From assembly GCF_025024155.1 (NCBI RefSeq), contig NW_026251817.1:32781-96780 (forward strand): a stretch of 64,000 nt of DNA. Reading direction: 5' to 3'. The stretch is from Gamsiella multidivaricata. Its lineage: Eukaryota > Mortierellomycota > Mortierellomycetes > Mortierellales > Mortierellaceae. Below, one piece after another: positions 1,022 through 64,000 of the stretch. The notes below the pieces were generated by a model that made no database searches, had not been told where the DNA came from, and was given only the letters and a program-made list of their open reading frames with translations. The position numbers were made by a program, and so were the translations under genes. Numbering within the stretch: the stretch's first letter is position 1; every line of letters starts with the position of its first letter.

Positions 1022-4000
1022 CTATTGCTGTTGTTGTCTATCCTTCTTTTCCTTGGCCTCAGCGAGCGCCAGGAGCGTGTCAAACTCTGTAGAACGCTCA
1101 CACATCGACCTAAACACACCATTCTCCTTCCTCATCAACGCATACGGCGTATCAAACTCTGCAATCTCTCCCTGGTTCAACACCAACACCCTGTCGAAAT
1201 CCGCAATCGTCCTGATCCTGTGTGCGATCGTAAGAATCGTCGCCTCCGCCATCTCCTCCCGGATCGTCGTCTGGATCCTCAGATCCGTCTCAAAGTCCAC
1301 ACTCGCCGTCGCTTCGTCCATGATGATCACCTTGGGCTGACGCACAAGCGCACGGGCCAACGCGACTAGTTGACGCTGACCTTGCGAAAAGTTCGAGCCG
1401 TTCTCCTTCACGGCAGTGTCCAATGTGATCCTAGATGGGTCCACAATCTCGCTGTCACCGGAGGTAGAGCCTTTGATCGAGCCAGCGGGTGACACGGCTG
1501 CAGGCGCATCCTTGCTATTGCTTGACGACCCTGCAGCAATCGCCACAGGAGCCAGAGTCGGAGCACTGTCCGCAGGGATCAAATGGCTGCGTCGCAGAGC
1601 TTCCCAGAGCTCTCGGTCCTCACGTTCGCCAAACGGATCGAGGTTCGAGCGCAGCGTACCCTTGAACAGAACTGGATCCTGAGGAATAATCGTCAAGTTT
1701 GTTCGCAGATCATGCAAACCAATCTTGCCGATATCAATGCCGTCGATACGGATACTGCCTCGTACTGGCTCCATGAACCGGAACAAACTGATCGCCAACG
1801 TCGACTTGCCAGATCCAGTACGGCCAACCACACCGACCTTCTCTCCAGCCCTGATCTTGAACGAGATATCCTTGAGCACATCGGGTGTATCTGCCGCGTA
1901 CTTCACAGTCAAATGCTCGACTTCAATCTCACCAGCATGGGGCCACGAGGCCGGGGGACGGGAGCCCTCAATGATTGCTGGAGGTTCTTCTTCCAAATGC
2001 ATGTACTCGGCCACACGCTCGACTGCGTTCATGTTCATCTCGTTCTGCGCATACATCCGGATCACCCACACCATCTGCATCGTGAACGTAAGCGAGTAAG
2101 ACAAGCTCATAGCTGCCCAGCCTGGCTCGATACTATCCCACTTGCGGAGGATCAGCATACCGGTACTGAAGGATACCAGAGCGCCTGTCAAATCCACACG
2201 CCAGTGCAGCCATCGGTTCGTTGACCAAAGCAAGAAGAACGTCCGGTTGTTGTTGTCAAGGTTCGTCAAGTTCGTCGACAGAAATCGGTCCTGGAATCCA
2301 AACGCTCGGATGGTCGCAACACCGTTCAGGGTCTCGTTGAAATGGTTCAGAATCGGCGAACGAGAGTTTGAATTCAGGCGCTTGAGGTCGCGTGAGATAG
2401 GAACGAAGAGGATACCAATGACAACATAGATTCCGACAATAAAAACCGCAGAGATCAAGAACGCCGGCATGTTGATCGAGATGACAAGGACAAGGCCACT
2501 GATGGAGATAATGGTGTTCATAAATATGTTCAGACCAAAGAGCACCTGCTCATCGATCGTTGACATATCAGCGCTGAATCGGTTGATGATACGGCCGATC
2601 GGGGTCGTGTCAAAGAAGCGGATCTTGGCGCGCGAGACCTTGTAGAGCAGTTCGGCGTGTAGCACCCTTGAAGCGGTGACGTTTCCGACGACCATCGCAT
2701 AGTAGTTGGTCGCGACATTAAACAGCATCTGAACAACACCGATCAAGGTGTAGATGCCCAGGTAGTACTCCACATTGACAGACTCCTGTGTGCCCTTTCC
2801 AAACAAGGCCATCGTCATTATGCCATACCCTCCACTGTTCTTGGGACCGAAAGCCGAATACAGAGACAGAGCAATAGACTCAGGTACGACCGCCTGGAAG
2901 GCCTGGATGACAAACGATCCGGTCTCTCTCGCCACAGCGTTGGCCCACATCGCCAACCAGGTATTTTGTGCAAGGTTGCCTCCTTCGCGAAAGATTTCAA
3001 ACAGAAATAGACTGATCCAGAAAGGCCAACCGCCCGCCGCAGACAAGTAAACCTTGTAAACCCTGAATGGAATCGATCCCTCCTCCTTCTTTTCATCCTC
3101 CGTGAGCTTGGGCGCGACTCTTTTCTTGACATCGGTCTTCTTAGCCTTCTTGGCGGCCTCCTCGCCGTCCAAGGTGCTGACCTCGCTCTCGTCGTCGCCA
3201 ATAGGAGTCGCCAGAGCAACGCGGTCGACCCATCCGCTGCGCATCACTGTCTCGGGTGTTCCCGCGCCCAAAATCTCGCCCTTCTCCAGGACAACGACGT
3301 AGGAGGCTGCATTCAGCGTCAGCTGGATCTGGTGAGTAGCCATGAGGACGGTGCGGCCCTCGAGGAGGGGTCCGGTCAAGGTCTGGAAGAGCTGCTTGCC
3401 AGTGTGGGTATCCACAGCCGAGAGACAGTCATCGAGGAGCAACACGTTCGCATCAGAATAAATCGCGCGAGCAAGGGCAAGTCGCTGCTTCTGTCCTCCA
3501 GACAAGGTGATACCCTGGTCTCCGATCTCGGTCGCGTCCCCGCCCTCAAGGATCTCAAAGTCCGTTATCAACGCACATCCCTCGACAACAGCGTCGTAAC
3601 GCTCTTGGTTGAACTCCTTGCCAAACAGAATGTTTGCACGGATCGTTGAGTTCTGGAGCCAGGCCGTCTGAGAGACATAGGCGATACCGGATCCGCGCTC
3701 ATAGTTGTGGATCTCATCATAATCCAGGCGGGGCAGGTACATGTGTCCCTCCAGACGTTCGAGCTCACCGAGAAGGGCCAGCAGCAGGGCGGATTTTCCA
3801 GACCCCGTAGGACCGACGATCAACGACAGCTTTCCGACAGGGAAGTCAGCGGAAATGTTCTTCAGCTTGAATCGTTCCTGGACAACATCGGATTCAGCAG
3901 CAGGTTCTACAGGTGCAGCCTCAGGCTTCTTGGAGAACCAGCCCTTGATCCTCTTGGATAAGGGTTCTTTCTTGAAAGCCTTAGTCTCTGCAGCCTGCTC

Positions 4001-6370
4001 CTGCTCCTTGTTGGGCCAGGCGTACGTGGCGTTGACGAATCCAATTACGGGGTGATCCTGAGGTGCCGAGGCAACACGGGCCTTGCCATCAAGCCTGGTG
4101 ATAGTCGTATCCTTGACTATCTCCTCATCAGCTAGGAATCTCGAGATACGCTTCAAACTGACTACTGCACGCATCGAGCCCATGATAATCCACGGAATCT
4201 GATCCAGAGAACTGCGCATGATGTTGAAGAGCGACAGGGTCGTAAACAGGACCGAAGCCGTGATCTCGTGTCCATAATACTTGGTGTAGCTCAGAATCAA
4301 GACGAGGATGTTGAGCAACGGCACAATCGACCAGGCAATGTTCGCGACCGCTCCCTGGACGAACGTCTTCTTGATCTGAGAAAGCTCGCGCTCACGAGCC
4401 GCTGTGATCTTTTCGACAAACTTCGATTCCCAGCCAAAGAACTTGACAATACGGATTGCAGATAACATCTCGGTCAGGTAGTCCATACGGTCATCCTTGA
4501 TGCCCATGATGCTTTCGAACAGTTTGTTGAGAGCCGAGTAGAGAATTCCTGGGATAGGAAGAGTGATGACCATGAAAACGATTCCGATGATCGAGGCAGC
4601 TCCCAGGAGATTATAGAGAAGGTAGGTAGACAGACCGAACTGGATGGGAAAGCCATAGATCTCGTGCAAATAGCTCACCGTGTTCTCCATCTCCTTGATG
4701 TCCACTCCAACCAAATCTACACAGGTCAGCAGAGGGAAACAGCAGCCATTTCAATTAGTGAACACATTTCAATAACGAGCCATAGACGAATCGATTTGTC
4801 AACGACGAGTCCTCTGTGGCTCAACTTACTGGAAATGTTCATGGTACGGTCCTTCTTTGGGGCGGCAGCGGCATCTGCCTGTTCACCACCGCCTTCTTTT
4901 TCCTCGGGCTTATCATTCGCAAGCGTGGCGACGTCCTTTCGAAGAAAGACCTTTGCAAATACGGCCGCATTACAGATCGAGACCAAGTGCATATACAGAC
5001 GACGACTGCGATGAAGGACCGTCTGCTGAGCAGCAGATTCGAGGATCGCGCAACCGAGCAACGCAAAGACCCAGGCGTAATTTTCGTACGTCGGTGCACC
5101 ACAATCTTTGCATTCGATGTACTTGACAATCCTGTTCAGGAAGTAAGGCTGTGCAACGATCAAGATGCTGAAAGGAATCGAGCACAGGAACTGCATAATC
5201 AAGTCGCGCCGAAGAGCCATGAAGAGCGACTGAGTAAACGACTTTTTCCTAAGAAAAGCACAATGTCCATTTACAGATTAGCACAGGAAAAAAAAAAATG
5301 GAAAAAAGAAAAGCCCTCCTCTCACCTCCTCTTCCTCATCAAGCCGGAGATCTGTATCGCAAAAGGAGCATTACTTACTGAACAGCCTTGTACTTGCGAA
5401 CCGAATATTTGGACTGATCCGTCGGCTCCAGCTCCGGCAAATCCTCATCCTGGATCGGCCTCCTGTACCTCAGATACACCAATGAATTCACCCATGCGAA
5501 GGCGCACCGCCCGTACAGCGAAGACGCATATTCCATCGATGGGGTTCTCACCTTCTCCCCTTCCTTCGGAACCTTCATCTTCACCAACTTTTGCATCGGC
5601 TTCGTCAGTAGAGTCACCCAGACCAACGACAGTATCGTCAACCACGCCGCGCTTTCCATCTTTAGCCACACGGGCCATTCTGTGAACGGCAACGTCAAAA
5701 CCTCGGCCCTGTAAAGCGCCATGGACGACAGGATCAAGGATAGAATATAGAAACCATCCATCTGTGGACGGATCCAGAATTTGGATGCGACGGCCGGCCA
5801 GATCAGATACACGAACGACAGCGCCAGCGCATAGAACCATGTCATCGCTTGGATGCCATCGTCCAAAAGACTGTAATGCGGATCCTGCGGCAATCGTTCT
5901 TCTCCGTCATGATCTGCGTTCCCAAAGTGAAACAGAGCCAAGGTAAAGACTGCAAGGCCGAGTCGGAAGGCTGTGAGGCCCAATCGTGCGAGATGGAGGC
6001 TCAATCCTGAAGCCCGCTGAGCCTGGTACTGCGTCTGGATCGCATCTATGGCTGTGGAGTCTGTGAGTGCGGTGTTGCCTCGATGGTGTTGGTTGTTTTG
6101 GGCGGCGGTATTGTTGTCTTCGTTGGCGTCGTCTTCATGGTCAAGGGTATCGCGAAGGGGCTCGTACTGGTCCAGATGCACGGGTTTCGTTGAGAGATAG
6201 ATGATCAAGCCCGCCGAGGCGAGCGAGTACGCCAGCGGCAGAGCAGTCTCGACCAATCTGGGGAAGCAAATGGATGATCTCGGTCAAGGGGCCTTGTCTT
6301 TTGAAAGAAGCCATTGTTATCCGACAAAGACGAAGAAGAACAAGAGGTCTTACTGGGCAGGAGAACTCAT
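1022..6370 (-). CDS. ABC transporter, ABCC/MRP subfamily (full length)
   Basis: Four exons: 6370-6354 (MSSPAQ), 6257-5379, 5248-4830 and 4716-1022 (stop TAG), giving 1669 aa. Order: TMD0-like N-terminus with several hydrophobic segments, a first ABC membrane domain starting in exon 3, NBD1, a second membrane domain, NBD2. NBD1 has Walker A GPTGSGKSALL, signature LSGGQKQRL and Walker B VLLLDDCLSAVD. NBD2 has Walker A GRTGSGKSTL, signature FSQGQRQL and Walker B VIIMDEATASVD. Asp instead of Glu after NBD1 Walker B and the 'SQGQ' NBD2 signature are typical of ABCC proteins, which have one degenerate ATP site. The family exports glutathione, glucuronide or metal conjugates across vacuolar or plasma membrane; the substrate cannot be read here. 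NBD2 carries an inserted Ser/Ala-rich loop of about 45 residues before its signature. The 17-nt first exon is inferred from an ATG plus GTAAGA donor and is the least certain part; the in-frame TTG at 6256 is not a plausible start. Confidence 0.92.
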
Positions 6371-14570: not shown

Positions 14571-17500
14571 TCATAACGCATCAACCGTGTCCCTGTCTTT
14601 CTCCAGCCAATTCTCCGCACGTCCTTGCTTGATCATCTCGCAGTACCACAATCCATACACCTTCTTATTGAACTCGGACACCGATCGAATCTTCTCCAAC
14701 AGCGCAACCATCTCGTCTTCCAGTCCCGTCAATCCGTGCGCCTCCATCTCCGCCGTATTGAAACTAAGCTTTGCTGCCAACGCTTCTGCCGCTGCCTTGT
14801 TCGCCTCCTCCGGCGACATTGGAGGAGATGCCGGCGATGGTGCTGGTGCCGGTGCCGGTGCCGGTGCAGCTAAAGTAGCTGTCGCCTCAGTACGATCGCT
14901 GGGGCCGTTTCCATTTCCGTTCTGACGATCCTGATCCTGACCCTGCTCCGCCTTCTCCTTGCTAGTGGCTGTTGAATCATTGCTACGTACTGCTAGTGCT
15001 GCTGCTGCTGCTGCTGCTCCTGCAGTCGCTCCGCAGCTCTCGTCTCCCTCCTCATCCTCATCCGCCTTGCCACTATCCTCCGGACTCGATGAAGACGAAG
15101 ACATCGACATCGCCGATGCCAACGACGCGCACGACGCCGAGAGCACCATCATCGATGAACTCGAGTGCAAATACAACCACCGCCGGAAATGAATCAACAA
15201 CCGCTTCTGGATCAACATATACAGTGTCGACGTCCTGCTCAGCGCATTGTCAAGCCATGCCGTAAGCAAGTTCGTGTCCGAAGCCGATAATCCGTTCGCA
15301 GGAACAGTCGGCGCCGCTGTCGGTGCTGTATTCTCCTTGACGTCACCGCTTCTGGATCCAGACGCCTCTACCCCACGAGGATCAGGCTTTGGAGTCAAGG
15401 TCTCGGACGCAGGGGAGGGTCTTTGGCCTGCATTCAACGCTCCCACCCCCAATGATCCACTTGCAGTCACAGTTGAAGATCCCGCCACCGCAGAGCCGTT
15501 CTTGCTCCTCTCCCGAACCTTTCGTGCCGCAAACTCGATTTGGACAACAATATCCTTCATACCGCTACTGCTTCCTGAAGCGGCATCAGCATCCACTTTG
15601 CCTGCAGCCGCCGTAGCTCCTGGCCCTGGATTGGTGTTTGCTCCGAAATTCGCGTTCTCGTCCGTCAACAGTAGCCAGACAACCTTCTTGATTTCGATCA
15701 AATCCTGCGTTGTCCAACAGTTGTGCGCGAGCTGACGGAATAAAATCAAAAGCGTGCAGAGAATCGTCAGATCCTGAAAATCATTATGAAACGACAACAT
15801 CCGGTAATGGTCCAACTCGAAAGTCTCCGGCATCGTATTGGTCGATCCATGCGGACGCAGGATCATTTCGAGCAGACCTATAAAAAAAAAAATCCTCGTT
15901 ACGTTAGCAAGAATCACAAACAACAGAAGTCTTGCAGCCCAAAAAGATCGCAGTACGTACCTTCGTTCACCACACCGTCCAGGATGTTCTCTCCAATGTC
16001 GGCTCTGACAACGCTGGACCGTCTCTTGGCATTAAAGGATGAAACCACCGGCACCACCAAGGCCTTGGACTCGTACCCGCTCTGCTCCGGGTCGCTCGAC
16101 GAGAAACCGGCGGACGAAATACTGAGCTGTTTTGAATTCGTATCTGACGAACCAGACACTTCATTACCCGATGTCTGCGGTCCAATCACAGAGCGCTTGA
16201 CTGACTCCCACTGGATCCAGGACCGCTTGAACCACTCCTTAGTTCTATGGATAGTTCCTCCGCGAGCGAGAGTCTCCGTGAAGAACTTTTGCTCGAAATC
16301 CACAGAGTTGTCTAGGAGCCATGGCCTCAAAGTCCGCAATTGGTGGTTGGCGATATCCTATCAGCACATGAAAGATTTTAAATGCGATAAAAAAACCATT
16401 AGAGCGACCATCCCTATCGAGTTGAACGCACTGCCATGACAAAAAAAAAAAAAATCAAGAATACACATACCAGCTTCATCCATTCCAGAATCTCAAAGCA
16501 CATACGGATTCCACGCACAATCTCGTCAAAGTCGACAACAAAATTGACCATAGACTCGACCAGGGCATCTCGCATCGGGGCACAGTGGCCCTTCAGTGAA
16601 TCACCAAGGAACCTGAAGAGAGCATGGACATCCAGTACACCGTGATCGAGTTCCTGGAGCAGCATGTCCGGATCCAGCGTCGACTGCAACAGGGCTCGCT
16701 CCGGATTGACTGGGGGCGCACCCCCATCTTGGTTTGCTACCGCTGGTGGTAGAGCAGGCAGAAGTGATATCAAGATCTCTCGGAGTTCATCAATTAATCG
16801 CGGAAGGAGAACAGCCTTGGGTAGCGGACACATCTGTTGTGCTTGCTGCTGAACCAATCTGCTCGTGGGACTGGAAGAGGACAGTCCAGCCAGACTGAGC
16901 ATCGTTGCGGCGGTTTCACGTCGAGCTGTAAGGATCGCTCGTCGATTCGACAGCTCGATGCCAACCTCGCGCCAGAACCGATCCGCCTCCCGCCGCTTGA
17001 CAAGGCCACGCTCGCCGTCAAAATTGGGCCGGAACTGGAGGTGAGGGTCAAAGACAATATCATGTCGCAGCTGCGGGTTTTTGAAGATCTCGAGCATGTC
17101 CAGCTCTCGCAGCGTCTCACGAGTAATGGGTAGCGACAGTGTTGCAGGGTTAACTGTAGGTGCCAGCGCAGGTGCCGATTTCGATGATGGAGCAGCTGAT
17201 GGCGTTCGAGTAGACGGCAGCATTCCAGTCGCGGACTTGCTGGTCTGGGATGAGTGCTGAGTCTTTGATCTTTGCTGAAGTTGACTTTGAATGATCTGAT
17301 CTTCCTTCTGCATAGGTCGGGTAGGTTTTGGTGCATGAGCTAGGATTGGGGCTGGAGCTGGAGTTGGAGTTGGAGTTGGAGCTGAAGCTGGAGTGGGCTG
17401 GGGGTTCGATACAGCTGTGCGCTCAGATGCATGATGAGTGGCTACTGACGCAAGGGTGTCAACCAATTTGGCGCTGGCGGTACTCCTCTGTCCAGCCTCA

Positions 17501-20500
17501 AAAACAGCGGGCTCCTTGGACACGTCGGCGTCGAGAGGGTGGATGGAAGGCTGCATGTGAGGCTGGTTACTTGCCTCGGGTATAATGGATGCATTTCCTG
17601 AAACGGGCCTTGCAGGCTCGCTATCGAAGGGGTGTATCCGTGTAGACTGCTCCAGACGATGATGGATTGATTGACTTGCTGTGTGGGCTTGTTGGACGTG
17701 ATGAACAGCCGATTCACTATGCCGCTTGAGCTGATCATGATCCTTCGGATTCTGCAGAGACATTGTCGTCTGGTGGTCGCTGAGGATCGAATCATCCTGC
17801 ATGACTGACGAGGTTTGGTGCCGGGCTCGCTTCAGACGCTCCATACTGCTGGCAGTTGGTGAGGTTGGGGAAGACATTGACGACTGGAAGGACGTTGTTT
17901 GTGCAGGGGGACTTCTCTGACGCTTGTGGTGTAGATCGCGCTCTGGGTGGACCTGGATGCGGAGTGGATGTTGAGGAGCTAAGATATGCTGGTCGTGTGG
18001 GCTCTCGGCACGATTGTGCTGGGTATCTTGCAATGCGGAATGCGAGGCTGATGAAGATTGGCGCTGCTTATGTTGATGAGAATGCTGGATATGGCGCTGA
18101 TGATGGGTTGCGATAGATTTCTGTACCTGGTTGTGGTCCTGCTCAGCCCCTTGATCATGGGCCTGTTGATGGGACGACTGCCGATTCCTGGACTGCCGGC
18201 GTTGGTGCAGAAGGCGATGCGACGATGAACTCCGATCTGACATCGACAGCTCCGACTCGGATATCGTCCGCACGCGTCGTGTTGATTCCATCGTATTTGT
18301 ATCGATGTGTTCCTGTAGAGACTCTGCCGCAACCTCACTATGAGTGTTGGAACAGCCACAGGAGGAAGTGCAAAGGTTTCGTGGAGTCTTTGTCGAAGAA
18401 TGAGACGACTTTTTGATCCGCTTCCGACGCGATGCTGAAGGAAGAGAGACCGTAGAGGTGGAGGCGGAGGTACTGCTGGCTGATGAGACTACTGATGCTG
18501 GCGAAGATGTATAAGAGAGGCTGGAGTTGCGTCTCTTGGACCGCTTGTGGCCAAAAGTGGTCAGCGTGGGCACGGTCGAGATGTCGCGGAAGCTGATGCT
18601 CCTGACGTCTGTTACGACGATATGCGGACGACTTGTGGGAGGAGGAGAGTGGTTTTCAACGCCGCTGCTCTCTACTGGGTTCTGCAGGCTGTTCTTCGAT
18701 TGACTGTGGTGATTCAAAAATGCTTCGCCCTGTGAGATTGAAGAGCGAGGCCCAGAGAGGAAATGGGGGAGAAAATGAGCTCTGCGCCTAGAATCGCGCT
18801 GAGCCTGGTCCTTTGCAGGGGCGGAAGATGATGAGGGTAGCACTGAAGAGTCGTTGTCCTGGTCGACGGAGAGGAAAGAGCCTTTTTTGAGGCGAAGGCT
18901 ATCTGAGGGAAGGGTGGTGGATGGCTCTGTCTCTGCTGAGGATGAGGATGAGGATGAGGATGAGGATGAGGATGAGACAGACGAACTTGAGGGTGATAGC
19001 GAAGGTGCAGTGGAAGGAGGAGATGCTGTTGGCGATGAAGAAGAGCGTTTGGTAGAGGCAGAAGCAGAGGTCGCTCCTGATGAAGTCGACATATGGCACA
19101 TATCACTGCCAGGAGATATCCTGCCCCCAGTATGTGTAGCTTCAGCGGAGGACGAGGAAGGTGTGGCTACAGCACAGAAGCACACGAAGAAGAGCGATGG
19201 ACGATGGTGGTAATGACGGTGACGATGACGACGTTATAGGAGTTCAGGAGAAGGGGCGATGAAGAAGATCAGGACGAGTCGGAGCCGCAGGAGGAGATGC
19301 GAATGGAGAGCGAAGGAGGAGACAAAGAGAAAGGAAGAAGAGAAGAAGAGTATGTGGTGAGTATAGGCATCTTGTTCCGACGGGATCATCATTGTCATGG
19401 ATAGCTGGGTCAATGGCACACACACACAGCCCATTCTTTGTTTGATCGCAGGATGAACAAACCACCATCGGCGCCACCATCGGCACCACTACCACCACCA
19501 CCATCGACACCATCACCACGGTTCGTTCAAGTTAGCGACAAAGAAAGAATGACATTTAGATTCATCGAAAAGGGGTCCAAAGGAAGACAAGTTAAAATAA
19601 TGCACCACAGCTCAGAAGCAAAAGGTATGCAGCAATGCATCTGCCGGACAGAAACACAAAGAGCAATTCAAGAAAGTACCACGGTCCGAACGCGTCGCAG
19701 ACTGAGTCGCACCACCAACAACAAACTCTAGGAAAAATATATATAAATCTGTGTGGTACGTGTGTGTGTAGACATAGATGTGGATTGTGTGTGCAACATG
19801 CTGTGGAGACATGATCCCAAGGAGGACCCGTGGTGATTATTTCCCCTTAGCCACCTCTTGCTGCCACGCTGCCATCTCCAAGTTGGCCACCCTATGTGCA
19901 GCATGACATGGGCCCACCAGGAAGTAACCGCCATTGGCCCGACCCCCTCCATAGTACGTGTGCAAGAGAAGAAAAGGAGGGACGCGGAAGAAGTGGATGT
20001 GGAGGTGGATGTAGACGAGGGTAAAAGGAAATGTAGGACCAAACATGGATACTTGGTCCTCCTAGTCTTCTTTGTTTCTCCGTTCTTACCTCTGTCATTC
20101 GAATAGATCTGTGTTTGAGTGTAATCCGCGGCCTTCTTGGATTGGTGGCGCTGCACTCCTTCGCCAATGTCATCACGACCTGCACCTGTCCGTTCACTGT
20201 CGTATCTCGGTCTCTCTGATTTGAGGTTAGCTCTGGCAGTGGTAACAACGACATCGACATTGACGGCACTTCCGGTAGACTGGGCCGGTAAGGCATCCCG
20301 GGTCATTGGGGCGACTGCAGAGATACGCTTCCTTTGTGCTGTATGGACAGGGACATTATTGTCCATGGACTGCAATAAAGTATGGGGATGTTGCTGTTGG
20401 ATGATTGAATTGGAGTCATTGTTGTAGTTGATGCTGCTATTGCCTCTGTCTAGACCGCTGAGGCGGCGGCCCTTGCCCGAGCAGCGGTTGCTTTCGCTGT

Positions 20501-57983: not shown

Positions 57984-58211
57984 TCACTTTGGAGGCCCTC
58001 GTGGCATCGTCCTCGGATGTCGAGAGCTTGAAGATGACTTTAGTGCCTGTTGAGTGGCGCTGATACTGGTGCTAGCGGCGCTAGGATAGGGAGTAGCTTA
58101 GAAAAAAAGCACGAGCTGGTCGTGTCGAGCCTGGGCCTGCAGGACATTCAAGGCTTTCGTATGTCGCCCGAGATCAGAGATAAACGTCAGGTTTTGCATC
58201 GTAGCATGGTT
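57984..58211 (-). CDS. Possible very small gene (about 49 aa), unrecognised
   Basis: Minus-strand reading at 58199-58113 (MQNLTFISDLGRHTKALNVL then QAQARHDQL) and 58046-57984 (ALKSSSSSRHPRTMPRGPPK, stop TGA). The two pieces join in phase 0 through a 66-nt GT-AG intron (GTGCTT donor, CAACAG acceptor). Upstream, a CCTACAG acceptor-like site precedes 58211 in the same frame, so there may be an earlier exon. The composition looks like protein rather than random translation, but the piece is short and I know no family for it. It lies between the ALY and seipin 3' ends. It could equally be part of a longer seipin-side 3' transcript. Confidence 0.33.
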
Positions 58212-58855
58212 CTGTAGGAGAAGGTGGGAATGTGAAGGTGAAGGACTGATAAAGTCAAAAGGTGTGCTTTAGTGAAATAAAGGAGTGGGGAATTGCCAAA
58301 AAGCGCGGATTTAATAGGCATCAACGCATGCGTGTATGCACTGCCAAGAAAGCAAGAACGCGAAGCCTTTTCTTGTGTTTCAGCAGGCCTGGATAGATGC
58401 GGGGAAATAAGAGGACAAGGAGTGATTGATAGCCTGAGGATAGCATTCATATTAGGGAAGCGTTTTTTTGTCACGTTCAATCCAACTATCGTTGGTGGGT
58501 GGGGTTTACACATGTAAAGCGTTGTTAGCACGACGTTCTATTACTAAGCTACACGAGCTAGGATATGTCTGTCGTCCATTACCCGCTACACATAGATATT
58601 CTATGAACTGCACCATCGCACAGCACGCAGCAAGTATTCTTGAAATATCATGCAGCAACATTCCAGACGTGTCTCGCACTTAAACATCTGAGATGAACCA
58701 AAGACCAATCGAGCGCGTCAAGCTATGCCCAATAGCTCTGCGTTCCTGTACCTCAATGGTCGTTGTGAGACCGACTATCCTGCGGTCCCAGTGGGGGTAG
58801 GAGAGCGTGTTTCAGCAGTATTATCTACTTGTTCCAGCGCGCCATCATATCCAAA
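58212..58855. other. Intergenic region downstream of seipin
   Basis: 644 nt holding the seipin 3' flank and, possibly, the leader of the very small gene. An open frame on the minus strand (58187-58531) has no protein-like pattern and no splice partner. Nothing else was recognised. Confidence 0.4.
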
Positions 58856-60370
58856 TTAAAAGCCAGTCCCTCCGCTGTCGCGTTGTATTTTTTCATCCGA
58901 GGTATCTGTCTCCAACCATCCCGGAAGGCTCTGAAGCTGCGGCGAAAATTGATGGTGCGGTGCTGCCAAAGACTGAGGTTGCGACTGTGGATTGTTGAGC
59001 CGTTTCTGATCACGTACAACCGTGAGGGCCTGAGATCGAAACTTTGGACATAACCCCCAGCGTGAGAGAAGACGCCAGGTGATGATGTAAAATACGAGTT
59101 CCCAGAAGGTGAAGAAGGGTATCAAGATAATAGGTGTTGAAACCGGGTGATAGTACATGAAGTACCTAGAGGAGGATAATGTTAGTTCACGAACGACACC
59201 ATTTCCTCCCATTCCGCCGTCTCTCTCTTTTTTTTTTTTTTTTTTTTTTTTAGCAAGGATGAAGGATTTACCGCAGTCCACTGAAATGCGCGTCAATATG
59301 GAGTGTCGTCTTGTAGACCTGTAATCTTGGGTCCGATATCTCCACAAACACTTGGACGACCGGGTTCGAGGAGTCCTCAACAAAATCCGTAATCATCGGC
59401 ACTTTGATCGTCTGGGCTTCTTGACTCCATTGTAAGATAAGAGGTATGGCTCTCCAAGCAGTACGTAAAAATCGCACGGCCATCGACTCGTACTTCACAA
59501 TTGCCTAAGGACGAACAGCAGCACACAAGGGGGGGGGGGAGGTTTCAGTCATTGAAGTTGATCAACCTAGTTTTTATACAAAAAAAAAAGAAGGGAAGAC
59601 TTACAGATCGACTGGAGCTCATGATGCTGTTTCCACCAGCGTTCAGTAACTGCACCTTGACCATGAAATTACCCAGCCCAGTATTTATTTCCGAGGTCGG
59701 CACCGTCAGAACTACAGATAGATGGTATGCTTGACCATCGCGAAGAAACTAACGCGCGCGTGATAATAAACGAGAAATATGGAAACCACAAATTTTCATT
59801 TAAACGCGACATTCATGCTCATGCTATAAAATGTTTAGGGGAGAGCTATACATTCAGTTAGTCTACCTGTGCATGCCGCCCACCATGTGTGAAATCCACG
59901 AGCGCCTTTGGTCCTGTTGCTATTGTGTTCGATGTTCTACCCGGATCCAAGGAAAAAGTCAGTCAAAAGCAAAAGACAACGAAACACATCAACAAACATC
60001 TTATATTCATCACCCCTCCCCCCTCCCCCCTCCCCCAAAAAAAAGGCAGATAAAGCCTTACCTGGACTGACTGTACTGCAGATAAACGTCTCCAACATGG
60101 TCTCGCTGTGGAATATAGATCCAATAGAACACCGTGTACACACAGAAGGATATACCGACTAAGAACCCCACCGCCAGAATCGCAACCAACAATTTGATGA
60201 CCTTACGCAGCAGAGGCGTTGGAGCATTAAAAACGCACCAACTACGTCAGCAAAAGGCGACGCGATAGAATTTTTTTGGTGAGCATAAGCAAATACATGC
60301 AGTAAAAGAATTTCGGCGTGCAATAACAGAATTATGCAGCTTTAGGATATAAATTACACCTACCGATCAT
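58856..60370 (-). CDS. SEI1: Seipin (lipid-droplet biogenesis protein)
   Basis: Six exons: 60370-60360 (start inferred), 60241-60062, 59936-59867, 59748-59605, 59504-59272 and 59165-58856 (stop TAA); 315 aa. A first transmembrane helix follows LLRKVIKLLVAILAVGFLVG. The lumenal domain has the seipin core GPKALVDFTHGGRHAQFLRD, AYHLSVVLTVPTSEINTGLG, FMVKVQLLNAGG and DSSNPVVQVFVEISDPRLQV. A second helix (STPIILIPFFTFWELVFYII) precedes a basic, Gln/Pro-rich cytoplasmic tail. Seipin forms ER rings that trap neutral lipid and set the site and size of lipid droplets. Only exon 1 is uncertain: MIGS through a GTGTAA donor keeps phase, and an in-frame ATG at 60394 would extend it. The gene begins only 19-43 nt after the Fanzor stop codon on the same strand. 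Intron 5 has a T tract at 59228-59250. Confidence 0.92.
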
Positions 60371-60412
60371 TTTTAAATGTGCTTGCGAACACATATATGG
60401 TTGAGATGGGGT

Positions 60413-63400
60413 TTAGGCACTTCCTGGGGCCTGGCTAGTTGCCGATTCCTGCCCTGATGCCGCATTGGCCGCACGCTTGCGCCTTGGAGCTCCTTCTTGT
60501 TCTGCAGCCGCGGTTGATGCTGTCCTCTTTCGGGCCACACTGCCCTTGCTGGCGCTGGTGCTGCTAGTACTACTGGTGCTATTGGTGCTGCTAGTGCTAC
60601 TGTTACCATTGATGCTGCTGCTACTGGTGCTCGCGCTATCGGTTACTGTCTGTGTAGCTTCCATCCAAGGATATCTACCATTCTCATCTACAGGCTGAAG
60701 ATAGAGTGGCCTCTGTTGCTGAAGCAAGTGCCCTTGAATAACGTTGCAAATATTGTGGCCCGCCATGATATCGCGGTGCATGTATGTCTTGCAAGTCTTG
60801 CAATACAGCCGACGTATTTGAACCTGGCCGACAAACTCCTCGCACATCGGACACTTCTTTGACGTGTAGTACTCATTGACGCCCACGACAATATACCCGA
60901 GCGCCCTTGCCTAACGGACACAGAACGTAAGGCGCCTCATTAGCGTCATCAGTAGTTTTTTTTTTTTTAAAAAAAAAAAGAAATCGAATGTCTTGCAATG
61001 AAGCACTAACCCTTTGAACAAAGTACGATTGGAAGGACTCATGTAACGAGGAAAGTCGTCTCGTGGATGAAAACTTGCCTAGACCAATGCCGATTACAAC
61101 CTTGTCCTCTTCATCTCGCTGTCTACCAAGCGATCCTCCAACCATATTGAGCAGGCGATCTGCGATGATGTCGAATTCTGCCTCTCTAGCTTTTCTGGCA
61201 TCCCACTGGTGCTTTTTGAATGTGGCGCTTTTGTTGTAGAACTCGTCGAGCTGCTCCTTGACGCCTGCTAATCCCGCAACGTACTTTTCAACGCTGGCAT
61301 CCTTTCCGCGAAGGGCTGGTAGCTCGCTTTCGATGTTGCTGATAGATTTTGCTGCGCCTAGCGGGATCGACCGTTTGCGTTCTTCTAACCAACGTCGAAA
61401 CTTGAATGTTGGTTGGTATACGGCCTTCTGCTTTACAGCTAGGTTGTAAAAGACCTGGGAGCTGCGGGCGGAAGCCTCGGTGTCATTGTCATTGTCAGGT
61501 TGTTCGGTACCGACGGCACTGTTCTGTTGATGGAAGCTCCCCTTGGATCTCGGCATACTCGCTCCTGTAACACATGCTTGCTCTGGATTATAACTGTCGT
61601 TGCGTGGCTTTCCATTTTCGAGGCTGACGGATTTTTTCATGTCATCTAAGGTCTTCTCAGGCAATAGAGCGCTCGCTCCAACCACAAACGCTTGACCAAG
61701 ATCGAGACCTAATATCTTGATTTTCTCTGGTTCACAGTCCCAAAGAACTGCGACATCCTGCTTCGTCTTGACAACGTTCCGAACCTCAGTTAGGTAGTAG
61801 TCGACTCCACCCACAGTGGACGTAATCCGAGAAGGCAATATGTCCGTGGGATGCCGCCTGTACCGAACCGAGAGAAGCTCCTTCAGCTTGAATGCCGTTA
61901 ACTGGAGACGAAAGCCATCGGTCCGAATAGATCCGCGAATAACGTAACCGCGTTCCTTATAAGTGCGGGGGTCGAAATCCTCGTTCTGAATGATTCTCAG
62001 GTGCTCTTTGATCTCTGCAAGTGAAGGTGTCGCGAGGTTGTTGAATGATTTGCTGATTCCGGGCATGCGACGCTTTTTATGACCCAGTCCTGCGTCGGTG
62101 ATGAGTGTCGTGAGGAGGTAGCCTGGTGCTTGGTTGGCCAGCCAGTACGACATGTCAGACAACGCAGGACGATAGTCCTTGGCTCCATGAAGACTCTGCA
62201 GCTTCGCCTTGAGTGTGTCGCTCTTCCAAAAGATTGAAATCAATTCCAGCTCCGTGAACGCGACGAACGGCTGCGCGGAAGGCGTACACGCCATTAACTT
62301 CCGAGGGTTCTTGGTCAGCGGGTTCAGACGGTAAAAGTTCTCGACCGCAGAGACGTCGCCACGAATGTCAATGCATGTCCCAGCCGGCAAGAGCCCTTTG
62401 ACCAGTTGTTTCTTGAGCTGTTTTAAAGTTGCCGTGTGTAAGGTTCGAGTTAGCGGAATAGAACCTTGTAACCTTGAACCTTGTGTCCCTTGTATGTACA
62501 TGTACATATGTTGTTCCCCCCTCTCTTTTTTCTCTCTTTCTTTCTCCCCATTTCGCCACAGAATACCTTCACTCTCAGTCATTCATTGTCTATGTCCAAC
62601 ATCGCCACTCCGGCATCCCTTACTCTTTCCTTCTCACATTTACCTTTTTATGGAGTTCCTTGCAGCCTTTTCCGTACAATCGCTTGAGATCAACCGACAG
62701 CTGCGCGATTATGCTTCGCAGTATGACTGACCCCGGGTATGGCATTCTCGTGTTGATGATAGCAGCATCTTTTCGTTCCAGTAAGTGTAGCTCCTGCGCT
62801 CGATCGATGAACCTCCGCGTGCACTGTATACTCTTCGTTTTGCCGCTAGGGATGATGCCCGAATACACATATGTTGTTAATATCCCAAGGAACCTTTGAT
62901 GATCGTCCTTATCGACCTCCGAATCTGCGTCTCTATCCTCCTGCTCCTTGTCGATCTCCGAATCTATGTCCTCCTGCTCTTCGCCATCCTTATCACCATC
63001 CTTATCATCATCCTTATCACTATCCTTATCACCATCATTGTCCTTATTCGTACCCGGTATGCGCGGGCAGATGAGATCCAACAAATCCCTATCCGTTTCC
63101 TTAAAGATGGCTGGATCAGAGACACGCTCGATGAACCGACCAAGGAGCTGTTGGCAAGTGCGTTTTGTATCGGCTGCAAGGCGGATGGCTTCCCGGAGGC
63201 ATCGGAGTACTTCAGAAGCTTCATCAGGGCTCAAGTCTTCAGCTCTTCTGACATTCGCGGATAAAGTCCCAACATCAAGTGTAACTGTTGGATGCTCCCA
63301 GTCAAGAGCACGCGTGAAGTCAGCCTTGTTCATCTCGTCAACTGACTTAACTTTCTTGGCGGTTGCTGGTTCAGGTTGCGTCGTATTCTGTGGAGGAATC

Positions 63401-64000
63401 ACTGGCGCGGACGGTGCCATCGGAGTTGTCTTCCAGGGCTTCCATTGGTATTGTGTCATTGACTCTGGTAAGTCGTGTTGTATCTTGCGAGTCCGCACCT
63501 TCATAGAATACCGTGGGCGATGACGAGGTTTTTCTTGCTGTGAAACCGCTTGATGAAGTGTCGAAGACGTGGGCGCTACCGCAGGTTGAGGAAATGTTGA
63601 GGGTGAAGGTGCTTCCGTGAGTTGCGTAAGTGTCAAAAGCGGGGGTGTAGCCGCGGGCTGAGGATGTGTCGAAGGCGGATGTTCAGGTCGATCAATTGTG
63701 CGGTAGCGGTTGAATGTTTGTGAAGACTTGTGCCTTTGGGATTCATTATCATGCGTCTCACTAGATGCATTGCCATAGTACGTAGACTAGAGTTAGTAAT
63801 GGACGCATTCAAGCGAAGGCAGAAGAATGAAGACTACAGGAGTAAAATTTTTTACCGTTTCCTGGCTTGAATGTTATCGCGCCGTTCTTTCCCATTGTCA
63901 ATGCATTCTATTTGCAGACGGCGAAACGTAGACCAAAGTTCCTCGTATTGCAGCATCTGGTGGGACTGAGCTTGCTGCACATGCTGCAATGGTGTCTGCT
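60413..64000 (-). CDS. Fanzor: eukaryotic TnpB-type RNA-guided nuclease, 5' partial
   Basis: Four exons: 64000-63856 (incomplete), 63760-62644, 62417-61011 and 60910-60413 (stop TAA); at least 1050 aa are inside the window. The N-terminal part has Gln-rich and Pro/Ala-rich sequence and a Lys-Asp repeat (62960-63060). The catalytic part has RuvC-I GLDLGQAFV (Asp codon 61701-61703), a RuvC-II strand VVIGIGLGKFSS without Glu, NEYYTSKKCPMC with Glu at 60872-60874, zinc-ribbon cysteines CPMC (60851-60853, 60842-60844) and CKTC (60800-60802, 60791-60793), and RuvC-III HRDIMAGHNI (Asp codon 60770-60772). A Ser/Thr-rich tail with basic RKR clusters (possible nuclear signals) ends the protein. Fanzors are RuvC nucleases guided by an RNA encoded next to the gene and descend from IS200/605 TnpB. 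Here all catalytic and zinc residues expected for the rearranged-Glu type are present. Mobility and guide RNA are not shown by the sequence. Confidence 0.88.

Follow-up and report, generated by a model that had tools for sequence, protein, structure and literature searches.

At the end of the window (the 64,000-nucleotide stretch of DNA analysed here, C12:32781-96780) we find a minus-strand gene, at 60217-64000, encoding the C-terminal part of a Fanzor1-type protein of at least 1054 residues (Table 1); it is incomplete at window base 64000 because contig C12 stops there. The four exons, the first of them partial, join into one open frame of 1054 residues that ends with TAA, across introns of 95, 226, and 100 nt that all have GT-AG borders, and the splice positions recur in diverged copies of the gene. 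The RuvC triad consists of D659 (in GLDLG, codon at 61701-61703), E902 (in NEYYTS, codon at 60872-60874), and D936 (in HRD, codon at 60770-60772), with a CxxC-x13-CxxC zinc ribbon between the latter two; there is no glutamate at the usual RuvC-II position (GIGLGKF), and the one in NEYYTS is six residues ahead of the first CxxC, an arrangement shared with the clade of Yoon et al. (PMC10711439). The last exon matches Pfam PF07282 (Cas12f1-like_TNB) with 44.1 bits (cut-off 26.3, E 2.3e-11); the RuvC exon by itself gave no match in a Pfam scan, and its single-sequence structure model, with a mean pLDDT of 39, is too poor to be used. The serine-rich tail (60413-60700) is a trinucleotide-type repeat, in which the copies vary by insertions and deletions.

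Table 1. Features at the Fanzor-bearing end of the window (window coordinates).
Feature	Position	Strand	Evidence
3′ part of MULE-type Fanzor element	60217..64000	-	exact boundary common to 12 compared copies and a 13th; cut by contig end
Partial exon, C-terminal end of XPG-side region	63856..64000	-	open frame, in-frame donor; aligns with the C93 exon following the XPG core
Intron, 95 nt, phase 2	63761..63855	-	GT-AG; donor placed identically in all 8 loci by eye
Exon encoding a basic linker (RPRYSMK...) and the N-terminal region of the Fanzor	62644..63760	-	joined frame; 92 own-genome matches
Intron, 226 nt, phase 0	62418..62643	-	GT-AG
Exon: WED-type TDG motif, RuvC-I (D659), RuvC-II region	61011..62417	-	joined frame, motif comparison
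Intron, 100 nt	60911..61010	-	GT-AG; splice position the same in diverged copies
Last exon: alternative glutamate E902, C4 zinc ribbon, RuvC-III D936, Ser-rich tail, stop	60413..60910	-	PF07282, 44.1 bits
Non-coding 3′ end with TGACGTAGTT motif; candidate scaffold of a guide RNA	60217..60412	-	13 copies nearly identical over the final 193 nt
Presumed 9-bp target-site duplication, one side	60208..60216	.	by comparison with the 3 copies that have an identified left end; other side off contig
Seipin gene, with the element interrupting or bordering the N-terminal end of its coding region	59260..60216	-	PF06775, E 4.5e-47, joined pieces

The initial annotation had described an intron-bearing, four-exon Fanzor with a RuvC aspartate, a zinc ribbon, and HRD, and a protein of more than 1000 residues. 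The GT-AG joins, the 1054-residue frame, and PF07282 (over the cut-off on the last exon in the proposed HMM check for the ribbon) bear this out, and the length is reached already within the cut gene. The exon joins hold, but what had been taken for the first exon is a partial internal one; the extent given for the feature (60413-64000) is right for the coding part, but the element runs beyond the stop codon to 60217. The description as an intact copy stands as far as the window reaches, where the triad is kept and the frame is open, although the contig end cuts the gene.

The Fanzor1 motif of Bao and Jurka, D-X(125,275)-[TS][TS]-XX-C4 finger-X(5,50)-RD (PMC3627910), is found in the window gene as X = 245, TSKK, the C4 finger, X = 5, and RD. 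The second half of the pattern of Yoon et al., which describes an alternative RuvC-II glutamate, ExxxxxxCxxCx(12,18)CxxCx(4,8)D (PMC10711439), is likewise found as E902, six residues, CxxC, x13, CxxC, x6, and D936. The first half, D-P-G (or D-x-G) followed by 120-160 residues to the glutamate, differs: the window gene has DLG instead of DPG, and its D659 and E902 are 243 residues apart. Since this pattern was written for TnpBs (PMC10711439), and SpuFz1 itself carries an asparagine at the third position (N385; PMC10432273), we do not count the mismatch against Fanzor1. The TDG motif, described as a Fanzor1 feature of the WED domain (PMC10711439), reads GSIRTDGF in the window gene, RTDGF in locus L052, and KDG in locus L053. 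A profile of three cores matches the solved structure of the TnpB-like protein L79 (E 3.6e-5); no entry named Fanzor was among the 16 PDB matches up to E 10. Taken together, PF07282, the Bao-Jurka motif, and the L79 match support the TnpB/Fanzor membership that had been proposed at the outset, with an apparently intact RuvC triad. Pattern searches of viral contigs gave 124 and 18 matches, none of them confirmed.

The gene is carried by a repeated element. A DNA search of the own genome, with 40 of 88 candidates scored, gave at least 10 copies at 95-100% identity and at least three at 87-92%; the 3′ end of the element alone matches at 14 places, including a 3′-only relic on C32 (72446-72587, 94% identity over 141 nt). 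Similarity ends at the identical base in 12 compared copies, and a 13th copy ends the same way. One copy, on C93 (locus L040), is complete (about 7.9 kb) and has the target duplication AGCGCTTGT; the copies on C131 and C126 have 9-bp duplications of their own (that of C126 with one mismatch), and a 9-bp duplication is present in all three copies in which the left end was found. MULE/MuDR elements make target duplications of 8-11 bp. The left end was searched for and not found in C98, C19, and C105, where both flanks are present; the C140 copy is cut by its contig. Internal deletion has left the C126 copy about 2.1 kb long with the same ends, and in locus L043 (C131:127001-136000) about 3 kb of other sequence separates the first 1.06 kb of the element from its last 2.3 kb. 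In a test for terminal inverted repeats, 13 of 27 positions match, and 107 of 20,000 shuffles reach as many.

The 5′ half of the C93 copy encodes, divergently, a probable transposase with a SWIM finger (25.3 bits, cut-off 19.6), and a MULE match to the same protein is below threshold (20.5 bits, cut-off 27.6). By these sequence features C93 is probably a Mutator-like (MULE) element with a divergent transposase of SWIM-MULE type; with the 9-bp duplications and this transposase, the carrier of the window Fanzor is a eukaryotic DNA transposon other than IS607. The C-terminal part of the transposase has ten matches of 96-100% identity, and seven of these are at places where no Fanzor match was found among the 40 of 88 scored candidates of the DNA search; thus, Fanzor-less relatives of the element exist. 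It is odd that 12 of the 13 near-identical copies are on the minus strand of their contigs, and seven of the 13 run to a contig end. For these two reasons we considered telomere-directed copies; no telomeric repeat is present in the locus ends inspected, which we read as assembly breaks in a repeat, and both the strand bias and the placement at contig ends are probably an assembly effect.

Between the transposase and the Fanzor in C93, on the Fanzor strand, there is an XPG-like domain (MGIEGLW, TEAD, DSD, and NDY). A profile of five XPG-like segments matches an XPG/FEN1 chimera (7.7e-7) and ERCC5 (3.2e-6) in the PDB, as well as structures of Rad2, FEN1, EXO1, and GEN1, mostly in the I-region. 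PF00867 has five weak matches over the cut-off in the genome, all about 3 kb upstream of a ribbon and on the same strand. The eight XPG-Fanzor loci studied in detail represent about six subfamilies; two comparisons between subfamilies gave dN of 0.40 and 0.51 with saturated dS, and within subfamilies dN/dS is 0.25 (L058 versus L057) and 0.47, values compatible with past selection on the protein. A search of prokaryotic genome contigs with the XPG profile gave 22 pattern matches, none of them confirmed.

Whether this domain is a working DNA nuclease can be asked, since it might instead bind DNA, process the guide RNA, or regulate the Fanzor. PF00867 scans of single copies score at or near the cut-off or below it (25.3, 24.6, 18.6, and 17.4 bits, cut-off 24.9), the XPG part of L058 alone matched nothing in the PDB, and broken frames are common. 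All seven FEN1-type acids, at what we take to be the catalytic positions, are nevertheless present by eye in seven of the eight loci (one of them as Asp for Glu; L055 is without one), falling into different frames in broken copies, and the dN/dS of L058 versus L057 also argues against a non-nuclease role, which we consider doubtful.

The association of the XPG-like domain with Fanzors extends well beyond the near-identical copies. Genome-wide there are 100 merged XPG-like loci, which include ordinary repair nucleases, and 109 ribbon hits. In 57 of the 100 XPG-like loci a Fanzor ribbon lies downstream on the same strand (at 2.4-3.4 kb in 45 of these), compared with three of 100 in the control with the ribbon upstream and 10 of 100 in the control with the ribbon on the opposite strand. 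Similarly, an XPG-like domain is the divergent neighbor, within 5 kb, in 15 of the 25 transposase loci that remain after merging, and 13 of these 15 also have a ribbon; an XPG-like neighbor on the same strand, or in convergent orientation, was found once each. The module of transposase, XPG-like domain, and Fanzor is therefore recurrent across diverged subfamilies. No ribbon lies within 8 kb of the remaining 43 XPG-like loci, and 53 of the 109 ribbons are without an upstream XPG-like domain; some of these unpaired cases are due to contig ends. On C1, C44, C113, C134, C170, and other contigs we observed XPG-like open frames of at least 400 codons (about 30% identity) with no ribbon within 8 kb, which may form a separate XPG-like family.

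The RuvC exon was recoverable in nine of the 13 copies: six are open (that of the window included), two have one stop, and one is frameshifted. Silent divergence from the window copy in this exon is 0.3-0.9% in seven of eight comparisons (codon alignment fails for the frameshifted exon), and by this measure the element has multiplied recently. The window copy could instead be an inactive product of recent transposition, mobilised in trans by a transposase, in a genome that no longer has any Fanzor activity: all eight XPG-Fanzor loci read in detail have some stop or frame change (the XPG part of C93 included), the internally deleted C126 copy keeps the element's ends, and transposase-only relatives exist. 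We consider this unlikely, given the open Fanzor part of the window copy and the six open exons among the nine recoverable ones; the window copy may be functional, as the initial annotation had suggested.

The XPG-like domain and the Fanzor are likely made as one protein, judging from related copies. In C93, removal of a 94-nt intron puts the I-region half of the XPG-like domain in frame with the next exon, which in turn joins in frame to the linker and the Fanzor. In L057, a single frame of 483 codons connects the exon that follows the XPG core with the N-terminus of the Fanzor. By eye, all eight loci have the donor ahead of the linker at the identical place, and a relaxed intron search found an in-frame join from this donor in L040, L052, L055, and L057; by eye, L053 likewise keeps the frame beside the linker junction, and the sequence near it is disturbed in L054, L056, and L058. 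This relaxed search was used after a stricter one, which missed the linker motif of L053, had found the join in only one of the eight loci (L040), a result that would suit two co-oriented, separately translated genes in one element. A methionine in the linker motif KMKxY of several copies (by eye) could start such a separate Fanzor, and several in-frame GT-AG joins are available per locus, which makes an in-frame join alone weak evidence; for this reason the donor position outweighs the frame. With the donor placed alike throughout, the L057 frame open straight across, and coding similarity reaching upstream of the linker methionine to the intron, two separate genes seem quite improbable, and a single XPG-Fanzor protein is the reading that we retain. 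For the window's own copy the XPG part would lie off the contig. The N-terminal extension of the initial annotation does exist, but is larger than described, continuing into the XPG/FEN1-like nuclease in related copies; given the architecture of C93, it would therefore comprise the linker and, by homology, a second nuclease.

Chance or a frameshift artefact is ruled out, with frame, introns, and motifs recurring across many copies, and so is prokaryotic contamination, because the gene has introns and adjoins a seipin gene.

The frame of this seipin gene, which has one match in the assembly, runs straight to the element boundary. On the other side of the boundary, the 193 nt before the element end have 0-7 mismatches to the window in the other 12 copies (C140 is also without 11 nt). 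The last 60 nt plus 9 have a fold z of -3.0 in the window and -2.0 in C93, and longer pieces have values of -1.0 to -1.9. Across 38 loci the motif TGACGTARTT is present in sense only, with 12 occurrences against 0.28 expected per strand; eight of the 12 are in window-family copies and three in one other subfamily. The shorter TGACGTA is present in sense past the ribbon region in eight of 17 diverged loci, and outside the window family (23 loci) there are nine sense versus two antisense occurrences. RNAalifold gave no consensus pairs on alignment A4, whose rows were picked for having the motif; Rfam gave no match up to E 1 in window 58000-64000; and no target-adjacent motif was seen by eye across 13 flanks. 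The 3′ end is thus far a suggestive candidate for a guide-RNA scaffold. Characterised Fanzor1 systems have their guide RNA from the right end of the element (PMC10432273, PMC11423790), and characterised Fanzors take the guide from the flank (PMC10432273); if the same holds here, the window copy would target the uninterrupted seipin site.

Beyond the observed anatomy, in-frame joining at a conserved intron, active-site residues, element ends, and recent multiplication, we favor, on balance, the following model. The window would hold the 3′ half of a MULE-type transposon that has recently multiplied and would carry, as cargo, a gene for one large protein made of an XPG/FEN1-like structure-specific nuclease, a basic linker, and a Fanzor1. 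The transposase would move the element, leaving 9-bp duplications; RNA from the 3′ end and the flank would provide the guide, which would match the DNA next to the insertion; in complex with this RNA, the Fanzor may then cut the empty site of the sister or homologous chromosome, and repair would copy the element back. The fused XPG-like domain would presumably act on branched DNA (the R-loop bubble or a 5′ flap), trimming ends such that recombination is favored over rejoining. In its most specific form this would be a two-nuclease OMEGA system on one polypeptide, in which the Fanzor opens and cuts the empty site, the fused XPG/FEN1-type nuclease processes the R-loop or flap, and a eukaryotic cut-and-paste transposon is recopied by recombination; we put forward this form only tentatively.

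The closest known relatives are the Fanzor1 of MuDr-type elements in Rhizopus, Phycomyces, and Mucor (PMC3627910), which are likewise of MuDr/MULE type with a 9-bp target duplication. That account describes them as encoding no MuDR transposase, and its text on these elements mentions no XPG-like domain; C93 has a probable MULE-type transposase and an XPG-like domain. SpuFz1, GtFz1, and PpFz1 (PMC10432273, PMC11423790) have a RuvC D-E-D with the glutamate before the ribbon, as in the window gene. Most Fz1 proteins are described as having 600-700 residues (PMC10432273, PMC11423790), whereas the protein here has at least 1054, plus the XPG-like domain in C93. The TnpBs of IS200/IS605 and IS607 similarly place an RNA-guided nuclease beside a transposase, with a guide from the flank (PMC10432273), which for the present element is a proposal; for TnpB, the element is retained by RNA-guided cutting of the empty site (PMC10432273). 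Unlike those TnpB systems, the element described here has a eukaryotic MULE-type transposase, a target duplication, introns, and a second nuclease domain. MULE-Mucorales elements (PMC6446971) have a SWIM-bearing MULE transposase in Mucoromycota, as is probable for the present element, but their description gives a 10-bp duplication and lists no further ORF, compared with 9 bp and an XPG-Fanzor gene here. With XPG, Rad2, FEN1, EXO1, and GEN1 nucleases the XPG-like domain shares the I-region and (by eye) the catalytic acids; unlike them it is transposon-borne, divergent, and apparently fused to a Fanzor. We recognised neither an XPG-Fanzor fusion nor a MULE with both transposase and Fanzor in the literature searched; Fanzor1 in MULE-type elements is already known, the XPG fusion with a resident transposase was not found in these papers, and we claim no priority for it.

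For the question of what Fanzors do for their transposons, the MuDr-type ones described so far came without a transposase (PMC3627910). With its resident transposase, its Fanzor, a candidate guide RNA, precise ends, and recent copies whose sites are identified, the present element makes the idea of retention (cut-and-copy) directly testable. A natural fusion of an RNA-guided and a flap- or bubble-type nuclease, if true, would add a new architecture and offer genome editing a precedent from nature for end-processing fusions.

Elsewhere in the window there are an ABC transporter frame (1025-4750, minus strand) and Tcp11-family frames (14574-19233, minus strand), all ordinary genes of fungal type. 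In addition, beside Fanzor loci on C1 and C107 we observed two to three tandem units of about 300 bp that are 98-99% identical (L001, 2144-3042, and L003, 2203-2820, in gene orientation).
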